18,444 nt of DNA from Bacteroidota bacterium (GTDB lineage: Bacteria; Bacteroidota; Bacteroidia; Chitinophagales; Chitinophagaceae), in assembly GCA_029778965.1 (NCBI GenBank), contig JAKPBL010000242.1:1-18444 (forward strand), given 5' to 3'. The translations under genes were made by a program, and so were the position numbers. Numbering within the stretch: the stretch's first letter is position 1; the number at the start of each line of letters is the position of its first letter. Shown in pieces: positions 6,294-17,130 of this stretch. The notes beneath the pieces are model-generated. The model saw only the letters and a program-made list of their open reading frames with translations. It had not been told where the DNA came from and did not search any database.

Positions 6294-7331
6294 TTACAGA
6301 AACGCTTTCATAATATAATAAATCGCGGCGGCAAACAGCGCGCTTACGGGAATCGTAAGTATCCAGGCCCAGAGCAGGTTGATCGTTACTCCCCAACGAA
6401 CGGCCGACAAGCGTTTGGTGGCGCCCACACCGATAATGGCGCCGGTGATGGTATGCGTGGTGCTGACGGGAATGGCGAGGTGTTCGGTAAGATACAAGGT
6501 AGCGGCGCCGGCGGTTTCGGCAGCCACCCCTTCGAGGGGCGTTACCTTGGTGATGCGTGTGCCCATGGTTCTAACGATCTTCCAGCCCCCGCTCAATGTA
6601 CCGAGACCGATGGCCGTAAAACTGGCCAGCGGCACCCACCAGTATATGTTCACGAACGTATTGAAGTCCATGGTTACGCCCAGTGTCTTTTCGTGGAAGA
6701 TGATGGCGGCGCCGATAATACCCATCACCTTTTGCGCATCGTTTCCGCCATGACCGAGGCTGAACAGGGCCGACGACACCAGTTGCAGGCGACGAAACCA
6801 CTTGTCGGCCTTGTGCGGGATGGCTCGTTTGCAAATATGCAGGATGAGCACCGTAATGATATAAGCGATGATCATACCGATCAGCGGCGCCAGGAAAATA
6901 AACAGGAAGGTGGGGATCACTTTGCCGTAGTTGATGACATCGTGCCCGTTCTTCGACAGCCCGCCGGCATGGGCCAGCGCAGCACCGAGAAAGCCTCCCA
7001 TCAGGGTATGCGACGAGCTCGACGGAATCCCGAACCACCAGGTGATCAGGTTCCATACAATGGCGGCCACCAGCCCCGCAAACACCACCTGCATATTAAT
7101 GAAATCTTCGTTCACCCACTTGGCTACCGTGTTGCCGATCTTGAATTCGCCGATCCAGTATTTGGATATAAAAAAAGCGGCAAAGTTGAAAAATGCCGCC
7201 CATAGTACCGCCTGGAAGGGAGTAAGCACCTTGGTGGAAACAATGGTGGCGATGGAATTGGCAGCGTCGTGAAAACCATTGATATAATCGAATACCAGGG
7301 CCAGTATAATAATGATAACGAGAAATGTCAT
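6294..7331 (-). CDS. pit: PiT-family inorganic phosphate transporter
   Basis: This is a 345-residue polytopic inner-membrane protein with the duplicated PiT signature: DYINGFHDAANSIATIVS (residues 15-32) and SLGHGGNDAQKVMGII (191-206). The additional repeats GIPSSSSHTLMGG (101-113) and IPVSTTHTITGAIIG (287-301) are also typical. PiT proteins import phosphate (often as a metal-phosphate complex) with protons or sodium. The gene follows a DUF47 gene with a 27-nt gap, the widespread DUF47-PiT pair in which the PhoU-like partner controls or assists the transporter. It probably shares the DUF47 promoter. It is the low-affinity-type phosphate importer of the cluster. No Pst ABC system is present in this window. 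Confidence 0.93.
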   Translation of the reverse strand: MTFLVIIIILALVFDYINGFHDAANSIATIVSTKVLTPFQAVLWAAFFNFAAFFISKYWIGEFKIGNTVAKWVNEDFINMQVVFAGLVAAIVWNLITWWFGIPSSSSHTLMGGFLGAALAHAGGLSKNGHDVINYGKVIPTFLFIFLAPLIGMIIAYIITVLILHICKRAIPHKADKWFRRLQLVSSALFSLGHGGNDAQKVMGIIGAAIIFHEKTLGVTMDFNTFVNIYWWVPLASFTAIGLGTLSGGWKIVRTMGTRITKVTPLEGVAAETAGAATLYLTEHLAIPVSTTHTITGAIIGVGATKRLSAVRWGVTINLLWAWILTIPVSALFAAAIYYIMKAFL

Positions 7332-7358: not shown

Positions 7359-8006
7359 TTACGCATATTTGATGATAATGCTTTCGATCACATTGGCCGC
7401 ATCTTCGCATTTGTCGGTAACGATCTCCATCACCTGGTAGATCTCTCTCTTTTTGATCACTTCTTTCGCGTCGGGTTCGGTTTCAAAAAGCCGGTCGATG
7501 CTCAGGTCGAAAATATCGTCGGCCTGGTTCTCGATGCTGTTTACTTTCACCAGGGCATCGGTCATTTGCCGCATATTCTTCATGTTGCGCAATTCCAGTA
7601 CGGCGTTTTTGATCTGCTCGGAGCCCTGGTCGATCAGGTCGGCCATTTTCTGAATGCCGGGATCGTTGGGATTTACCTTGTAAAAGTTGATCTTTTTGGC
7701 GGCAGCGAAAATGTAATCGCAGATGTCATCGAGCGCGCTGGCCAGGTAATGGATGTCTTCCCGATCGAACGGGGTGATGAAGTTGCGGCCCAGCTCGGTA
7801 AAGATCTTGTGTGTCAGGTCGTCGTTCACATGCTCCAGGTCTTCCATCCGGGCGATGAGGGCGGCCCTTTTGTCATAATCCGTTTCACTTACCACATCTT
7901 TCATCAGCCGGCCCATTTTGGCCACCGTATTGGCTACTTCTTCAAAAAGGGAATAGAAAACCTTGTCCTTGGGTGTAAAGAGTTTCAGGATCGACGAGAG
8001 CGACAT
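7359..8006 (-). CDS. DUF47-family PhoU-like protein (PiT accessory protein)
   Basis: Taking the ATG at 8006 gives 215 residues, the normal DUF47 length, beginning MSLSSILKLFTPKD. An in-frame ATG further upstream (8084) would add 26 residues that read through the likely promoter, so I reject it. The protein is all-helical with PhoU-like features: repeated acidic segments (DLEHVNDDLTHKIF, ENQADDIFDLSIDRLFE, DKCEDAANVIESI) that in PhoU relatives bind metal clusters. DUF47 proteins are encoded with PiT transporters and are thought to regulate them. Here the pair is co-oriented with a 27-nt gap. The protein is predicted to be cytoplasmic and membrane-associated. Whether it also signals to the PhoR-like kinase in this window is unknown. 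Confidence 0.88.
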   Translation of the reverse strand: MSLSSILKLFTPKDKVFYSLFEEVANTVAKMGRLMKDVVSETDYDKRAALIARMEDLEHVNDDLTHKIFTELGRNFITPFDREDIHYLASALDDICDYIFAAAKKINFYKVNPNDPGIQKMADLIDQGSEQIKNAVLELRNMKNMRQMTDALVKVNSIENQADDIFDLSIDRLFETEPDAKEVIKKREIYQVMEIVTDKCEDAANVIESIIIKYA

Positions 8007-8020
8007 ATACCAATTTTGCG

Positions 8021-8028
8021 CAAAAATA
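8021..8028 (-). promoter_or_regulatory. -7 promoter element of the DUF47-PiT operon
   Basis: On the minus strand TATTTTTG matches the Bacteroidota -7 consensus TAnnTTTG and ends 14 nt before the ATG at 8006. No TTG is found at the usual 19-21 nt upstream, so transcription may rely on an activator bound further upstream. The element supports 8006 as the start codon. Confidence 0.5.
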
Positions 8029-8066: not shown

Positions 8067-8083
8067 GTAATAATTCCTTAACA
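8067..8083 (+). promoter_or_regulatory. Putative Pho box A (11-bp-period direct repeat) upstream of the porin gene
   Basis: GTAATA-ATTCC-TTAACA is two TTAACA-like hexamers spaced 11 bp apart. It lies between the two divergent -7 boxes and ends 32 nt before the porin -7 box. The same pattern recurs at 9485-9501 and 12930-12914 at almost the same distance from a -7 box. The 11-bp period matches DNA recognition by PhoB/PhoP-type (OmpR-family) regulators. Binding is inferred, not shown. Confidence 0.55.
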
Positions 8084-8115
8084 TTGAGAATCGCCACCCG
8101 CATGACCGGGGAGTT

Positions 8116-8123
8116 TACCTTTG
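8116..8123 (+). promoter_or_regulatory. -7 promoter element of the porin gene
   Basis: TACCTTTG matches TAnnTTTG exactly and lies 21 nt before the porin ATG. The position 19 nt upstream carries CCA rather than TTG, so there is no -33 box, consistent with activator-dependent transcription from box A. Confidence 0.55.
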
Positions 8124-8128
8124 CCCGC

Positions 8129-8145
8129 TTCATAATTCCTTAATA
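8129..8145 (+). promoter_or_regulatory. Putative Pho box B overlapping the porin start codon
   Basis: TTCATA-ATTCC-TTAATA repeats the box A pattern. An exact 12-bp match (ATAATTCCTTAA) is shared between 8070-8081 and 8132-8143. This copy covers the expected transcription start and the first base of the ATG, a position more suited to repression or to stacking of regulator dimers than to activation. Confidence 0.4.
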
Positions 8146-9452
8146 TGCGGTTTCAGCAGGTTATGCGGTTTTTTTGTAAGGGGGCAGTGGTTGTGGCATG
8201 CCTGTTCGCAAGTCTTCCGGCCCGCTCCCAGTTCCTGATGGACATGCTTGATACCAGCAAAATGAACGGTAAAAACCTGCTGGGCATTTACGAAAAGTTC
8301 AATTATCTCACCATTATCGGTTATATGCAGCCCCAGTTCCAGGTGGCTTCCGAAAAAGGCGCCCGCACCTTTGCGGGACCTGATTTCGCCCCGGCGGTGA
8401 ACAACCGGTTTATGCTGCGCCGCGGCCGGATCCGGTTCGACTATACCCGTTTCAATAAAGACGAGAAAGCCAGCGTGCAGTTCGCTTTCCAGTTCGACGG
8501 AACGGAACGGGGCGTGAACATCCGCGATTTCTGGGGACGGGTTTTTGAAAACCGCTGGGAAGTGTTCACGCTGGCGACAGGTATGTTTGCCCGCCCTTTC
8601 GGCTACGAGGTAAATTACTCGTCGATCGACCGGGAATCGCCCGAACGCGGCCGCATGTCGCAGACACTGATGAAAACGGAACGCGACCTGGGCGCCATGG
8701 TCAGCTTTGAACCCCGGCGTAAAGGCCACCGGTTTGCCTGGCTGAAGGCCGATTTCGGGGTGTTCAACGGGCAGGGACTCACCGGCCCGGGGGAATACGA
8801 CTCTTATAAGGATTTTATCGGCCGGGTAGCGATAAAGCCGCAGCAGTTGATGCCCGCCGTTAAGTTTTCGGCCGGAGTATCGCTGCTGACGGGAGGCTTT
8901 ATGCAGGGCAGCAGGTATATCTACCAAATCCATAAAGGAGATGCAGGCTACCGCGTCGATTCGAGCGAATGGAACATCGGTAATAAAGCGCCACGCCGGT
9001 ATGCGGGTGCCGATATGCAATGGGAGTTCACGCATCCGCGCAGCAAAACGGTATTCAGGGCCGAGTACTGGGCGGGAAAGCAGACAGCCACTGCCAATAC
9101 CAGTGAAACGCCCGGCGGATTACCAACCGATCCCTTATATACCCGTCCCTTCAACGGCGCTTTCTTTTACCTGCTGCATACCATCGGCAAAAACCAGTTT
9201 GCGTTGAAATACGATTGGTACGATCCCAATACCGCGGTAGCGGGCGCCGGCATTAAAGCCGGGACCGGTCATTTCGGCGCCGCCGATATCAAATACAAAA
9301 CGCTGGGTATCGGCTACCTCAATTACATCAATAACCACCTGAAGCTGGTATTATGGTACGACCTGGTAAAAAACGAATCGACGGCCCTGGCAGGATATGA
9401 GGCCGACCTGCGCGACAATGTGTTCACCTGCCGCCTGCAGTTCCGTTTTTAA
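8145..9452 (+). CDS. Porin P/O-family outer-membrane porin (phosphate-selective type)
   Basis: This is a 435-residue protein with an N-terminal signal peptide (about residues 1-28, ending PARSQ) and a beta-barrel pattern of alternating polar and hydrophobic strands. It closes with the outer-membrane-style C-terminus FTCRLQFRF. The middle part has the OprO/OprP-like features RRGRIRFDYTRFNKDEKASVQFAFQFDG and a strongly basic complement of Arg and Lys, as expected for an anion-selective channel. Family members in Pseudomonas (OprP, OprO) take up phosphate and polyphosphate and are induced by phosphate starvation. Selectivity here is inferred from family and from the adjacent phosphate transporter. 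A second in-frame ATG at 8163 would give a shorter signal peptide and cannot be excluded. Confidence 0.85.
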   Translation: MRFQQVMRFFCKGAVVVACLFASLPARSQFLMDMLDTSKMNGKNLLGIYEKFNYLTIIGYMQPQFQVASEKGARTFAGPDFAPAVNNRFMLRRGRIRFDYTRFNKDEKASVQFAFQFDGTERGVNIRDFWGRVFENRWEVFTLATGMFARPFGYEVNYSSIDRESPERGRMSQTLMKTERDLGAMVSFEPRRKGHRFAWLKADFGVFNGQGLTGPGEYDSYKDFIGRVAIKPQQLMPAVKFSAGVSLLTGGFMQGSRYIYQIHKGDAGYRVDSSEWNIGNKAPRRYAGADMQWEFTHPRSKTVFRAEYWAGKQTATANTSETPGGLPTDPLYTRPFNGAFFYLLHTIGKNQFALKYDWYDPNTAVAGAGIKAGTGHFGAADIKYKTLGIGYLNYINNHLKLVLWYDLVKNESTALAGYEADLRDNVFTCRLQFRF

Positions 9453-9484
9453 CCACTTTCGTTTTTAAGGGCGCCCGCCGTCGC

Positions 9485-9501
9485 TTCATCATTTCTTAAC
9501 C
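9485..9501 (+). promoter_or_regulatory. Putative Pho box C upstream of the DUF5690 gene
   Basis: TTCATC-ATTTC-TTAACC has the same two-hexamer, 11-bp-period structure as boxes A and B. It ends 31 nt before a TAnnTTTG box. Orientation relative to the gene is the same as for box A. Confidence 0.55.
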
Positions 9502-9532
9502 TACTGTTCAAATACCCGTAATAACCGGGCGT

Positions 9533-9540
9533 TACATTTG
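9533..9540 (+). promoter_or_regulatory. -7 promoter element of the DUF5690 gene
   Basis: TACATTTG matches TAnnTTTG. The place where a -33 TTG would sit (9511-9513) reads AAT, so activation from box C is plausible. The predicted transcript start is near 9547. Confidence 0.55.
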
Positions 9541-9546
9541 CAGCGG

Positions 9547-9568
9547 CTGGTTGGGCAGTGACAACCAG
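9547..9568 (+). other. Leader hairpin 1 of the DUF5690 transcript
   Basis: CTGGTTG (9547-9553) pairs perfectly with CAACCAG (9562-9568) across an 8-nt loop, placing a stem at the predicted 5' end of the mRNA. It could protect the 5' end or act with the terminator-like stem downstream. Confidence 0.5.
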
Positions 9569-9584
9569 TTTTCTCCTGCAGTGT

Positions 9585-9616
9585 AAGCCAAAGTATGTCT
9601 ATACGTTGGCTTTTTT
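9585..9616 (+). terminator. Terminator-like hairpin with T-tract in the DUF5690 leader (possible attenuator)
   Basis: AAGCCAA (9585-9591) pairs with TTGGCTT (9606-9612). Inside it GTAT (9593-9596) pairs with ATAC (9601-9604) around a GTCT loop, with one A-G mismatch between the stems. The stem runs into TTTTTT, and after one C five more T follow. This is the form of an intrinsic terminator. It sits between the predicted transcript start and the preferred start codon at 9634, and it covers the alternative ATG at 9595. It could end transcription early unless refolded or bypassed. Confidence 0.5.
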
Positions 9617-9633
9617 CTTTTTATCTTGACGCA

Positions 9634-10878
9634 ATGGTTTCCGGCAAACAATGGCTTCAGGCCATCTACATGGCAGGAGTGGTATTCTGCCTTTATTCCT
9701 CTCTCTTCTGTTTCAGGAAGGCCTTCAATGTGGCGGCTTTCGACGGGTACGTGCTGTTTGGCATTTCTTATAAAGTAGTGCTGGTAATTACCCAGGTGAT
9801 GGGATATATGGCCAGTAAATTCTATGGTATCGGCTTTATCGCTTCACTGAAGCGGTACGGTCGCGGGCAAACGATTTTATTGCTGGCGGGTGTGGCCCTG
9901 GCTTCCTGGCTGCTGTTTGCGCTGCTGCCCGCACCCTGGGGTTTCTGGTGCCTGTTGTTCAGCGGGTTTCCCCTGGGCATGCTATGGGGCATCGTTTTCT
10001 CTTATGTGGAAGGCCGCCGTATGACCGATTTGATCAGCGCCGCGCTGGCGGTGAGCTTTATATTCGGCGCGGGACTGGCAAAATCGGTAGGCACCTGGGT
10101 GATGAATGCCGGAGTTACCGACCAATGGATGCCTTTTGCCACCGCCGCCCTATTCGTGGCGCCCGTTTTTCTATTCACCCGGCTGGCTGATCGCTTTCCC
10201 GCGCCCGATGCGGCTGATATCGCCCATCGTACCGAAAGAAAACCCATGAGCCGCGACGATCGCCGCCGTCTTCTCCGGCAATATGGCACCGGCCTCTTTT
10301 TGCTGATCGTGGTGTATGCGCTGGTGACGATTTTAAGAGAGCTGCGCGACAGCTTCATGGCCGATATGTGGCGCGAATCGGGCGAAGTGTTTTCTGCTTC
10401 CGTTTTTGCGCAAACCGAAACGATCATCACGCTGGTGCTGCTGGTAATTATTGCCGGCATGGTGCTGGTGAACGATAACTGGAAAGCGTTTTCTTATACA
10501 CACCTGCTGCTGGTAGCCGGCTTTGGCGCCTGCCTGGCGGCCACCCTTCTCTACCGGCAACACAGCATCGATACCTGGTGGTGGATGCTGCTGGTGGGAC
10601 TGGGCCTTTACCTGGTGTATATTCCTTTCAACAGCATTCTGTTCGACCGTTTTATTGCCAGCTTTGCCATTGCGGGCAATGTGGGTTTTCTGATTTACCT
10701 GGCCGATTCATTCGGTTACCTGGGCAGCGTGGCGGTGATGATGATCCGTAATTTTTTTGCCGGGCAGGTGCAATGGCTGGCGTTTTTCCGGACCCTGGTG
10801 CTGGTTACAGGGGCAGCAGGCGTGTTGTGCAGCATTGGGTCGTGGCTGTACTTTTTCAAACTCAACAGTCGAAAATGA
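9634..10878 (+). CDS. DUF5690-type multi-pass membrane protein, MFS-like putative transporter
   Basis: From ATG 9634 the protein has 414 residues and about 12 hydrophobic helices in two halves joined by a basic, polar loop (PDAADIAHRTERKPMSRDDRRR), a major-facilitator-like layout. Near the N-terminus CFRKAFNVAAFDGYVLFGISYKV and QVMGYMASKFYGIGF resemble what I recall of the Bacteroidota DUF5690 family, whose substrate is not known to me. An in-frame ATG at 9595 would add 13 residues (containing WLFSFYLD) that are encoded by a terminator-like stem and T-tract. I therefore prefer 9634, which places the first helix seven residues from the start. The putative Pho box upstream and the phosphate genes next to it suggest transport of phosphate or an organophosphate, but this is inference. 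Confidence 0.7.
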   Translation: MVSGKQWLQAIYMAGVVFCLYSSLFCFRKAFNVAAFDGYVLFGISYKVVLVITQVMGYMASKFYGIGFIASLKRYGRGQTILLLAGVALASWLLFALLPAPWGFWCLLFSGFPLGMLWGIVFSYVEGRRMTDLISAALAVSFIFGAGLAKSVGTWVMNAGVTDQWMPFATAALFVAPVFLFTRLADRFPAPDAADIAHRTERKPMSRDDRRRLLRQYGTGLFLLIVVYALVTILRELRDSFMADMWRESGEVFSASVFAQTETIITLVLLVIIAGMVLVNDNWKAFSYTHLLLVAGFGACLAATLLYRQHSIDTWWWMLLVGLGLYLVYIPFNSILFDRFIASFAIAGNVGFLIYLADSFGYLGSVAVMMIRNFFAGQVQWLAFFRTLVLVTGAAGVLCSIGSWLYFFKLNSRK

Positions 10879-10891
10879 GCCGTTGGGAATA

Positions 10892-11026
10892 CAACCAGTT
10901 TCACGCAAAGACCGCAAAGGAGCAAAGAGTGGGGATTGAATTGGTGCGGAAACACTCGTCGGGTAGGTATCTCCATAAAAATTCGCTTTGCGTTGCTCCT
11001 TTGCGGTCTTTGCGTGAAACTGGTTG
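10892..11026. repeat. 135-bp palindromic element: 34-bp inverted repeats with GCAAAG units
   Basis: The arms 10892-10925 and 10993-11026 are exact reverse complements over 34 bp, and the match extends outward 5 more bases with one mismatch. The loop is 67 nt. The left arm contains three GCAAAG units (10905, 10914 and 10922). Similar GCAAAG-rich intergenic repeats are, to my knowledge, dispersed in Bacteroidota genomes. It lies between the convergent ends of the DUF5690 gene and the histidine kinase gene, so it may also end transcription from both sides. No transposase or target-site duplication is evident. Confidence 0.85.
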
Positions 11027-11107
11027 CATTCGCCCAAAAGCCAAAATACATTCCTTCCTGAGCGCTTTGTGAGAAAAATGGCACTCGAGAGCGTGCCTTT
11101 CGGGCTT

Positions 11108-12160
11108 CTATTCTTTGCTGGCTGGCAGCGTAAAGCCGATCGTAGTACCCACATCGGTCTTGCTGCGCACGTGCATTGATTCACCATGGGCTTCGATGAT
11201 GTGCTTGCAGATGGCGAGGCCGAGGCCGGTGCCGCCCTTATCGCGGCTGCGGGCTTTATCGGTGCGGTAAAAACGTTCGAAGATGCGCGGCAGGTGCTCT
11301 TCCTCAATGCCGATGCCGTCGTCGCTGATCTCAACCAGCACCTTGAATTCATCCGTATTGTACACGCTTGCCACAATGTTGCCGCCGGGTTTTCCGTATT
11401 TGGCGCTGTTGGCAACCAGGTTGATCAGCACCTGGCGGATCTTTTCTTTATCGGCAAACACATATACCGGCGATTCGCAGCCTTTTTTGATGCTGGCATG
11501 GATCTCTTTCTGGTTCAGCTTGAGTGACAACGACTCGAGCACCTCCCGTATGAGGTCTTGCATAATGAAGTATTGCTTGTACAACACCTGCTCGCCGGTT
11601 TCGAGGCGCGATATCTCATCCAGGTCGTTCATCAGGGTAACGAGACGATCCACGTTGCGGCCGGCGTTCTCCAGGAACTTCTTGCTGATCGCGGGGTTTT
11701 CCATGGCGCCGCTCAGCAAAGTATCCACGTATCCCTGGATGGCGAATATCGGCGTCTTGAACTCATGCGCCAGGTTCTGCAGAAACTCTTTCCGGAAAGC
11801 CTCGTTGCGTTTCAGCACCTGGATCTCTCCTTCGCGCTGCGCCGCCCATTTCTCCACGTCTTCCTTTACCTCGTCGATGCTTTTTTGCGGAATAATATGC
11901 TTGTTATAGAACTCTTCCCGCTTGCTGGCCTTGGTCTGGTAAATGAATTTGTAGATCAGCTTGATGCGCCGGTAGATGAATTTCTGCAGGAAGTAAAATA
12001 TCAGCGCGTATGAAACAAGGAACAATAGTGAGAAATAGGCCAGGGCGATCTTCCAGTTACCGTCCACCAATATATTGGCCAATCCCACCAGCGTGGCGAT
12101 CGACAGGGCCAGTACGGCGGCTACCTGGCTGGGAGACAGATGTTTGAAATCTAACCGCAA
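11108..12160 (-). CDS. PhoR-like sensor histidine kinase without a periplasmic sensor domain
   Basis: This is a 350-residue kinase. Two membrane helices (about 13-32 and 37-58) are separated by only a few residues, so there is no periplasmic domain, and no PAS domain is evident. Residues 85-120 form a linker. The HisKA domain carries the phosphorylated H132 in LAHEFKTPIF. The ATP-binding domain has the N box (NLVANSAKY, 247-255), G1 DDGIGI (280-285) and G2 GGTGLGLAI (309-317). It lies 11 nt downstream of the PhoB-like regulator gene, so the two form a two-component system. The start is a TTG at 12160, since no in-frame ATG lies between the preceding stop and the first helix. The lack of a sensor domain fits PhoR-type kinases that receive signals from transporter and PhoU-like partners. 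Confidence 0.88.
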   Translation of the reverse strand: MRLDFKHLSPSQVAAVLALSIATLVGLANILVDGNWKIALAYFSLLFLVSYALIFYFLQKFIYRRIKLIYKFIYQTKASKREEFYNKHIIPQKSIDEVKEDVEKWAAQREGEIQVLKRNEAFRKEFLQNLAHEFKTPIFAIQGYVDTLLSGAMENPAISKKFLENAGRNVDRLVTLMNDLDEISRLETGEQVLYKQYFIMQDLIREVLESLSLKLNQKEIHASIKKGCESPVYVFADKEKIRQVLINLVANSAKYGKPGGNIVASVYNTDEFKVLVEISDDGIGIEEEHLPRIFERFYRTDKARSRDKGGTGLGLAICKHIIEAHGESMHVRSKTDVGTTIGFTLPASKE

Positions 12161-12171
12161 TCTGTTTCGTT

Positions 12172-12858
12172 TTATACATCAAATTTATACCCTACGCCCT
12201 TTACCGTGGTAATGCAGTCCAGTCCCAGCTTTTGCCTGATCTTACGGATATGCACGTCGATGGTGCGGTCGCCCACGATCACCTCGTTTCCCCAAACCTG
12301 GTTCAATATTTCGTTGCGAAGAAAAACCCTTCCAGGGCGGGAGGCCAGGAGGTACAGCAACTCGAATTCTTTCTTGGCCAGCACCTTTTCTTCGCCGGCA
12401 ACGGTCACGTTGAATTTTTGCGGATCGATCACCAGTTGATCGATGGCCAGTACCCCGGTGGCGGCATCGTCTTTTTTCGATACCCGGCGGAACAGGGCGT
12501 TGACGCGGCTGAGCAGCAGTTTCGGGCTGATCGGCTTGTTCACGTAGTCGTCGGCCCCGGTGTCCAGTCCCTTCATCTGGCTCTTTTCGTCGTTCAGGGC
12601 TGTCAGGAAAATGATCAGGGTGTCTTTGAAAGCCGGCTGGGTTCTCAATATCTCGCACACTTCCACCCCCGATTTTTTCGGCATCATGATATCCAGGATG
12701 ATAAGGTCGGGTTTTGCCTGCCGGGCCCTGGCCAGGGCCTCGTCGCCGTCTTTGGCGGTGATCACCTCATAGCCTTCGGTAGCCAGGTTATATTCAATAA
12801 TCTCCAGGATATCAGGTTCGTCGTCGGCGATCAGGATCTTTTTGCCCTTTGCGTCCAT
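12172..12858 (-). CDS. PhoB-like response regulator (OmpR family)
   Basis: Starting at ATG 12858, the protein has 228 residues, the usual length. The receiver domain (about 5-122) has the acidic pair D12-D13, the phosphorylated D56 in LIILDIMMP, T87 and K108. The winged-helix DNA-binding domain (about 132-227) ends in the typical RTIDVHIRKIRQKLG...GVGYKF sequence. A TTG two codons upstream is in frame but less likely as the start. Together with the kinase gene it forms a two-component system of the PhoB/PhoR type. The identification as the phosphate regulator is an inference, supported by the repeated 11-bp-period boxes at this gene's own promoter and at the phosphate-associated genes nearby. 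Confidence 0.88.
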   Translation of the reverse strand: MDAKGKKILIADDEPDILEIIEYNLATEGYEVITAKDGDEALARARQAKPDLIILDIMMPKKSGVEVCEILRTQPAFKDTLIIFLTALNDEKSQMKGLDTGADDYVNKPISPKLLLSRVNALFRRVSKKDDAATGVLAIDQLVIDPQKFNVTVAGEEKVLAKKEFELLYLLASRPGRVFLRNEILNQVWGNEVIVGDRTIDVHIRKIRQKLGLDCITTVKGVGYKFDV

Positions 12859-12885
12859 TAACAATTTCTTTACGCAAAGTTAATC
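12858..12885 (+). promoter_or_regulatory. Putative Pho box D overlapping the response-regulator promoter
   Basis: On the plus strand three TTAACA-like hexamers start at 12858 (TTAACA), 12869 (TTTACG) and 12880 (TTAATC), each 11 bp apart, with ATTTC and GCAAAG-type spacers. The site covers the -7 box, the expected transcript start and the start codon of the regulator gene, so binding here would be expected to repress it. Confidence 0.45.
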
Positions 12886-12904
12886 ACCAGCGCTAAGCGG
12901 CCAA
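12875..12904 (-). promoter_or_regulatory. Promoter of the response regulator-kinase operon
   Basis: On the minus strand TTG (12904-12902) is followed after exactly 19 nt by TAACTTTG (12882-12875), a full Bacteroidota-type promoter. The predicted leader is only about 10 nt, ending at the ATG at 12858, which supports that start. Confidence 0.65.
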
Positions 12905-12913
12905 TTTTCAGGT

Positions 12914-12930
12914 GATTATGAAATTGTTAA
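12914..12930 (-). promoter_or_regulatory. Putative Pho box D' upstream of the response-regulator promoter
   Basis: On the minus strand it reads TTAACA-ATTTC-ATAATC, and it ends 31 nt before the -7 box, the same spacing as boxes A and C. Its first 11 bases are an exact inverted copy of bases 12858-12868 of box D. Confidence 0.5.
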
Positions 12931-12957: not shown

Positions 12958-12987
12958 TTGCGTTATACGGGTTGCATTGTATCTTTG
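12958..12987 (+). promoter_or_regulatory. Promoter of the clan CD-like protein gene
   Basis: TTG (12958-12960) and TATCTTTG (12980-12987) are separated by exactly 19 nt, a full match to the Bacteroidota promoter. It ends 18 nt before the ATG at 13006. It diverges from the regulator promoter, and no Pho-like box lies at the usual distance. Confidence 0.7.
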
Positions 12988-17013: not shown

Positions 17014-17130
17014 CGCCATCGAATTATGAATATATTTAATGTATTGCACGGCCTGTCTTTTTCCTGTATTTTTTCGGTAAAACAGGGGTCAACAATTCGG
17101 TAATCGGCGGTGCAATTAGTTGCTTTCACC

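Follow-up and report, generated by a model that had tools for sequence, protein, structure and literature searches.

An 18,444-nucleotide stretch of DNA from a member of the Chitinophagaceae (Bacteroidota; assembly GCA_029778965.1, contig JAKPBL010000242.1) carries several copies of a short direct repeat with an 11-bp period upstream of its genes. This whole stretch, hereafter the window, is contig C473 of a 3.2-Mb draft genome that is 76% complete. An initial annotation had proposed that the repeat is the Pho box of this lineage, standing at a fixed distance from the promoter -7 element. The locus raises the question of whether the repeat is an operator and, if so, which regulator it belongs to and which genes it serves. 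Based on comparison with related genomes, the box is a genuine conserved operator, most likely that of a PhoB-like system, and is tied to phosphate import; it is a Pho-box variant with its own half-site and a two-orientation spacing. Two copies are of main concern: box 1, located between a DUF47-PiT gene pair and a divergent porin gene, and box 2, located upstream of a response regulator gene. The features involved are as follows (genes, -7 elements and boxes, with strand):

6294..7331, minus strand: PiT-type phosphate transporter gene (PF01384, E-value: 1.2e-86).
7359..8006, minus strand: DUF47/PhoU_div (PitR-type) gene (PF01865, E-value: 2.6e-21), with the start assigned to the ATG of MSLSSILK.
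8021..8028, minus strand: -7 element of the DUF47-PiT promoter, TATTTTTG, 38 nt from box 1 in the reverse sense.
8067..8083, plus strand: box 1, GTAATAATTCCTTAACA, the predicted common operator of the divergent DUF47-PiT and porin promoters; its position and orientation upstream of DUF47 are kept family-wide.
8116..8123, plus strand: -7 element of the porin promoter, TACCTTTG, 32 nt past box 1.
8145..9452, plus strand: Porin O/P-like outer-membrane gene, with weak similarity (E-value: 5e-6) to a protein of genome G008 that matches PF07396 (Porin_O_P).
11108..12160, minus strand: sensor histidine kinase gene, PhoR/PnpS-like (HisKA, HATPase_c).
12172..12858, minus strand: PhoB-like response regulator gene (Response_reg, Trans_reg_C), the presumed binder of the box.
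12875..12882, minus strand: -7 element of the regulator promoter, TAACTTTG, 31 nt from box 2.
12914..12930, minus strand: box 2, TTAACAATTTCATAATC, the putative autoregulatory operator of the regulator gene, conserved among regulator promoters.

Related genomes were scanned with a position matrix trained on 22 DUF47 and 16 regulator sites; two DUF47 loci without a canonical box (G014 and the second copy of G017) and seven reversed regulator promoters were kept out of training. Shuffles for the regulator, secondary-box and DUF47 scores preserve base composition only, and spacing counts cover promoters with a literal TAnnTTTG. A set of 80 named loci was also used, which may overlap the genomes that carry G handles and is not fully independent of them; in regulator protein sequence, Flavihumibacter records are the closest of these relatives (84% identity), and many of those listed by this protein belong to the Chitinophagaceae or Chitinophagales. 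Genome G049 is part of the 23-genome searches and is absent from the 29-genome ones.

An ortholog of the regulator is present in all 23 family genomes, and in 14 of them the form TTAACAATNNNNTAATN is found upstream of it in the forward orientation, with a gap of 31 nt to TAnnTTTG in the window and its near relatives. Among the regulator promoters of the 80 named loci, 66 reach at least 15 bits (0.19% of shuffles) and 71 at least 12 bits (0.75% of shuffles). The fixed distance to the -7 element that had been proposed is borne out in this set: for boxes of at least 12 bits, the forward gap is 30-33 nt in 49 of 49 promoters, and the reversed gap is 37-38 or 48-49 nt in 17 of 17. What appeared to be a second class of regulator promoter (TTAAST-N5-TTAAGT, seven genomes) was rejected, as it is the same box reversed, its gap being comparable to that of 48-49 nt in the named loci. 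Regulator promoters with a 31-nt gap (13 distinct sequences) hold 1.57 bits of information in the box, compared with 0.28 upstream and 0.30 in the spacer, and those with a 33-nt gap (21 sequences) hold 1.51 bits, compared with 0.31 and 0.51 in the flanks; rows were picked by TAA in both half-sites plus TAnnTTTG, and those box columns are omitted from the figures. Six of seven family regulator promoters outside training reach at least 15 bits, the seventh scoring 10.7. Beyond the family, 12 bits are reached by nine of 14 readable promoters, and five of these nine are TTAACCTTTACTTAACA or a one-base variant of it. Box 2 is also located 49 nt, in the reverse sense, from TATCTTTG (12980-12987), which faces a gene starting near bp 13005; because this is a permitted reversed gap, that gene may share the operator of the regulator.

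A similar pattern is observed upstream of DUF47. Of the 31 DUF47 loci of the family, 27 hold a box of at least 15 bits (0.16% of 620 shuffles; 22 of the loci supplied training sites) and 29 hold one of at least 10 bits (2.6% of shuffles). All but one of these 29 boxes (28) are directed away from DUF47, and 18 are located 36-38 nt from a TAnnTTTG that faces DUF47. Outside training, six of seven family loci reach at least 15 bits, with scores of 15.2-22.2. Where DUF47 genes occur within the named loci, the best box is reversed and reaches at least 14 bits in 11 of 11 cases, and all eight measurable gaps are 36-37 nt. This reversed gap is the same as the shorter reversed gap at regulator promoters, which is not readily a chance coincidence. 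Because nearly all boxes at DUF47 loci point away from the gene and so many stand at this distance from its own promoter, box 1 is most likely used in reverse by DUF47-PiT, in addition to its use by the divergent porin. This pair of genes, central to the present finding, was not mentioned in the initial annotation, which assigned box 1 to the porin and overlooked that it is also 38 nt from an opposite-facing TAnnTTTG (8028-8021) directed toward DUF47-PiT. A "sense" orientation, which had been taken as the rule, is thus not supported as a requirement, as the box is reversed at DUF47-PiT and has its own spacing there. At porin loci, the best box reaches at least 15 bits in 14 of 19 cases, several being the DUF47 box itself; the gaps found are 20 (three loci), 31 and 32 nt forward and one of 37 nt reversed. 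The porin-like protein encoded at 8145..9452 gave no match in a Pfam scan at 1e-3.

Based on these spacings, we predict that the box can be used in both orientations, each with its own distance: 30-33 nt (also 20, 41-42, 51-53 and 64 nt) when forward, and 36-38 or 48-49 nt when reversed. The permitted gaps appear to differ in steps of about one helical turn. At seven sites with a literal -7 element that belong neither to DUF47 nor to the regulator, forward gaps are 31, 32, 41, 42, 51, 53 and 64 nt and follow the helical turn (period of 10.8, p 0.001 compared with uniform gaps, uncorrected for the choice of period). Reverse-sense gaps at other sites are 7, 12, 15, 26 and 37 nt, the last three of which agree with 37 minus whole turns. 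The initial annotation had also described promoters lacking the usual -33 TTG, and this description holds: in regulator promoters, TTG is most frequent at a gap of 14 nt (13 of 75) and is found 18-22 nt ahead of the -7 element in just seven of 75. The lack of a conserved -33 TTG suits an activator.

It must be asked whether such matches could be chance similarity in AT-rich promoter DNA. All five sites of the initial annotation are present, and the distances of 32, 31 and 31 nt that it gave to TAnnTTTG are correct. The fit to its consensus is exact for 8129 and 9485, while 8067 and 12914 (minus strand) have one mismatch each and 12858 has two. Seven matches with up to three mismatches are found in the window (shuffle mean 1.04, with none of 200 shuffles reaching seven). 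In the whole genome, four of the five matches with up to one mismatch are inside the 18-kb window, and there are 18 matches with two mismatches, compared with 11 for a backward control. Since the consensus was derived from the same sites, this excess is by itself partly circular. Two further points favor chance: sites 9485 and 8129 are weakly supported, and a one-mismatch search of 23 genomes with the 16-mer TAAYAATTYCTTAAYA gave 101 matches compared with 83 for the backward pattern, which is near background and led us to reject a broad regulon defined by a loose pattern. Against these stand a conserved box with unconserved flanks, a fixed spacing, an orientation that is fixed for each gene and recovery outside training, so that chance is extremely improbable and, in our view, refuted for boxes 1 and 2. 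The proposed 11-bp direct repeat is retained as the operator, in the form TTAAY-N6-TTAAY, which is conserved at regulator and DUF47 promoters while its flanks are not. This conservation, both spacing rules and the identity of the neighboring genes are read directly from the sequence. The sole other consensus match in the genome with up to one mismatch (L186 4640-4656, on contig C443) is located between a UvrD-like gene (identified by eye) and a divergent gene, and no TAnnTTTG was found within 90 nt of it.

The remaining sites of the window, with the gene that follows one of them, are less uniform:

8129..8145, plus strand: candidate second box across the porin start codon, an exact fit to the earlier consensus (15.0 bits).
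9485..9501, plus strand: low-scoring box ahead of DUF5690, whose membership of the set is doubtful (7.6 bits; 31 nt to TACATTTG).
9595..10878, plus strand: DUF5690 gene (PF18943, E-value: 2.4e-143).
12858..12874, plus strand: reversed secondary box, located past the -7 element of the regulator gene and ahead of its start codon.

Conservation in relatives is strong for 8067 and 12930 (minus strand), partial for 8129 and 12858 and weak for 9485. In the interval from the -7 element to the start codon of the regulator, the best site reaches at least 8 bits in 14 of 48 forward-type promoters, in none of 17 reverse-type promoters and in no shuffled tails. The element at 12858-12874 is of this kind; because it overlaps the likely transcription start, it may limit autoactivation of the regulator. 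A counterpart of 8129, in the same orientation and 62 bp past the first box, is found among the 31 DUF47 loci only in the other genome of the genus (G008). In eight more of these loci, a second box is reversed or stands at a different distance. The proposed membership of site 9485 in the set is not supported: among 14 other DUF5690 loci, only one reaches 12 bits, and conservation of the site as an operator of DUF5690 was rejected. At 10893-11035, separating the DUF5690 gene from the kinase gene, a long near-perfect inverted repeat (ACCAGTTTCACGCAAAGACCGCAAAGGAGCAAAG and its complement) was seen by eye, which is perhaps a mobile repeat or a terminator. A further site at 17089-17105, TCAACAATTCGGTAATC (12.9 bits), is located near an ATP synthase subunit a gene and 25 nt ahead of TATCTTTG, a gap that is out of phase with the spacing rule.

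We consider it probable, from the sequence evidence above, that the PhoB-like regulator encoded at 12172-12858 has the box as its operator, and that this protein activates its own gene, PitR(DUF47)-PiT and the porin. A different OmpR-family regulator that also controls the regulator gene is quite improbable as the owner of the box. Further response regulators do occur in these genomes (as many as 126 candidates scored in a single genome), and the assignment of the box to this one is drawn from sequence; however, the most constant copy of the box is at this regulator's own promoter, in 22 of 23 genomes the regulator is the sole match at an E-value of 1e-40 or better, and DUF47-PiT is frequently located close to the regulator gene. 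Specifically, regulator and DUF47 are at most 30 kb apart in 13 of 29 genomes (separate contigs being scored as not), and regulator, kinase and DUF47 are co-directional within an 8-kb flank in 11 of the 80 named loci, 10 of these with PiT (many loci end at contig ends). A homologous kinase gene follows the regulator in 78 of the 80. The best NCBIfam models for the kinase are PnpS, WalK and PhoR, none of which reaches its cut-off. Its HisKA domain begins at residue 123 of 350, and this short preceding part makes sensing via PitR-PiT plausible. Under standard conditions, PhoPR of Staphylococcus aureus is described as having PitR for its dominant accessory regulator (PMC13170248).

Searches of whole genomes indicate what else the box may serve. 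The exact 16-mer gave 14 matches in 23 genomes (nine upstream of DUF47, one at a porin alone and four elsewhere) and 27 in the 139 genomes of the order, compared with eight for the backward pattern; five of the 27 are at DUF47, every one inside the family. A wider pattern, KTAAYAATTNNWTAAYV, gave 119 matches in 29 genomes compared with 61 backward, and 32 of the 119 are at DUF47 (17, all reversed), the regulator (13, all forward) or a porin alone (two). From the remaining 87, 42 were examined, nearly all top-scoring. Together with four sites of G104 and G001, 41 of these 46 are intergenic, compared with 18 of 30 control sites fetched from the 61 backward matches; at least three of those 61 overlap real boxes (G002:C39, G036:C1 and G036:C30), and "inside a gene" was defined by an open reading frame (ORF) of 100 aa for controls and 70 aa for real sites. 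Twenty of the neighboring proteins were scanned with Pfam and the rest judged by eye, and the list of targets other than DUF47 is descriptive. By Pfam, the genes behind boxes in G104, which belongs to another family and is not one of the genomes where DUF47 matches, include a Na/Pi cotransporter carrying PhoU domains and a Porin_O_P gene; further genes identified in this way are a phytase and, in two genomes, PF13620/OMP_b-brl_4 receptors. Others are near FecR proteins, a MauG-like protein, PlsY, a phospholipase D (PLD)-type protein and an extracytoplasmic function (ECF)-type sigma factor, and one is 186 bp from a PF01663 phosphatase gene on the other strand. In Flavobacterium johnsoniae, a phytase and a pf13620 receptor (both strongly), a MauG-like protein and a FecR-like regulator are reported among the genes induced at low phosphate, and PafA transcription does not change (PMC8115612). 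Reversed boxes are also located upstream of plsY-like genes (glycerol-3-phosphate acyltransferase) in two genomes (L249 2094 and L251 2090, the former by Pfam), a possible link of phospholipid synthesis to the regulator.

This range of targets bears on a second alternative, in which the regulator binds the box as a broad (envelope, stress or growth) regulator, or as a repressor of PiT, with phosphate genes being only some of its targets. We regard this as unlikely, though clearly less so than a different binding protein. The regulator has a relative at an E-value of 1e-50 or better in 124 of 139 genomes across the order, including some in which no DUF47 was found (DUF47 matches in 69 of 139), and boxes are also located ahead of FecR, sigma factor and other genes. 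In Riemerella anatipestifer, PhoPR is reported as a global regulator (PMC9603813 and PMC5399024), with peaks upstream of 764 genes in DNA affinity purification sequencing (DAP-seq) (PMC9603813), and its deletion raises pstS 8-fold, the opposite of what is expected of a simple activator (PMC5399024). Set against this, no targets other than the regulator itself are as constant as phosphate importer genes, and PitR of S. aureus controls a phosphate two-component system (PMC13170248).

That pstS result is one of several points that weigh against a phosphate-responsive activator. The regulator scores below the cut-offs of both PhoB models (229.8 bits against TIGR02154 PhoB, cut-off 296.2; 222.1 bits against NF053854, cut-off 270), and for this reason it is labelled PhoB-like only. 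Scanning the relatives placed the box at phosphate importer and regulator promoters, and it is mostly absent from pst operons, for which it had been proposed as a marker. Of seven loci found with the PstB model (three over the cut-off, with one operon start at a contig end), one operon start, judged by eye, has a box (13.0 bits), and pst operons were rejected as chief targets; PstB is over the cut-off in three of 23 genomes. At the visible 5' end of a pst operon in G020, near a contig end, a 98-aa ORF (L182 9907-10203) appears winged-helix-like by eye. Outside the family, six of 13 DUF47 promoters reach 12 bits, with mixed placement, and none of the 14 exact 16-mer matches is at DUF47, though DUF47 matches in only two of the 10 genomes concerned. 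Literal TAnnTTTG is not near most of the other sites examined, reverse-sense gaps of 7 and 12 nt do not fit the spacing rule, and boxes are found at genes with no evident link to phosphate (DnaB, ribonucleotide reductase and acyl-CoA synthetase, by eye). A last point comes from Sinorhizobium meliloti, whose OrfA we take to be a DUF47-type protein. The orfA-pit operon also carries a Pho box, but this box is located immediately ahead of the translation start and the operon is repressed upon phosphate starvation (PMC3131613), so polarity at DUF47-PiT could be negative.

Weighing these points, we still favor activation by the PhoB-like regulator, for which the following mechanism is predicted. A head-to-tail dimer of the phosphorylated regulator would occupy both TTAAY half-sites, which are offset by 11 bp, beside activator-dependent Bacteroidetes promoters (TAnnTTTG, no -33 TTG). 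At box 2, the regulator would turn on its own gene (positive autoregulation), while from the single box 1 it would turn on two flanking units, the PitR(DUF47)-PiT importer operon and, in the opposite direction, the outer-membrane porin. In a lineage that is mostly Pst-less, PitR-PiT may in turn inform the kinase about phosphate. We infer the binding protein, the activating polarity, the low-phosphate signal and the reporting role of PitR-PiT. A more tentative proposal, to which we give somewhat less than even weight, is that a large, mostly Pst-less branch of the Bacteroidetes has closed its phosphate circuit around PitR-PiT as the sensor of a PhoBR-like pair, which would control these two genes and often lie near them, using one operator in two orientations with helical phasing (forward 20+11n and reversed ~37+11n nt) and a second, downstream copy that brakes the regulator gene. 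Bacteroidetes contribute much to organic phosphorus mobilisation, and the matrix and spacing rule make the regulon predictable, and easily tested, across many genomes. The two-orientation rule is also well suited to showing how activators of the OmpR family might engage the unusual promoter of Bacteroidetes.

A search of the accessible text of open-licence PubMed Central papers turned up no phosphate operator for Bacteroidetes. For F. johnsoniae, expression at low phosphate has been profiled (PMC8115612). The proteobacterial PhoB Pho box (two CTGTCAT repeats with a 4-nt spacer; PMC3131613) shares with the present box the 11-bp direct repeats, the phosphate genes and an OmpR/PhoB-type regulator. 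In contrast, the half-site here is TTAAY (TTAAC/T) rather than CTGTCAT, and the box differs further in its TAnnTTTG promoters, in its use in both orientations and in being mostly absent from the pst loci seen. In S. aureus, PitR, which we read as DUF47, co-occurs with the PitA importer and modulates a PhoB/PhoP-type system; unlike the circuit proposed here, Pst is retained there, and the available description of it includes no operator (PMC13170248). The closest likeness is to PhoP of R. anatipestifer, a response regulator of the Bacteroidetes with a TTAACA core and, as here, a site at its own promoter, which is supported there by a DAP-seq peak and a gel shift. The DAP-seq core, TTTAACA, was called ArcA-like; the present box has the TTAACA half-site, and the preceding T is not conserved. 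In the part of that report available to us, the site is described in relation to virulence, without the phosphate-gene geometry (PMC9603813). Because both the core and the own-promoter site agree with the present box, the two are probably the same kind of operator, so that this type of operator is probably already known in R. anatipestifer under another reading, and the novelty of the present box is correspondingly lower.

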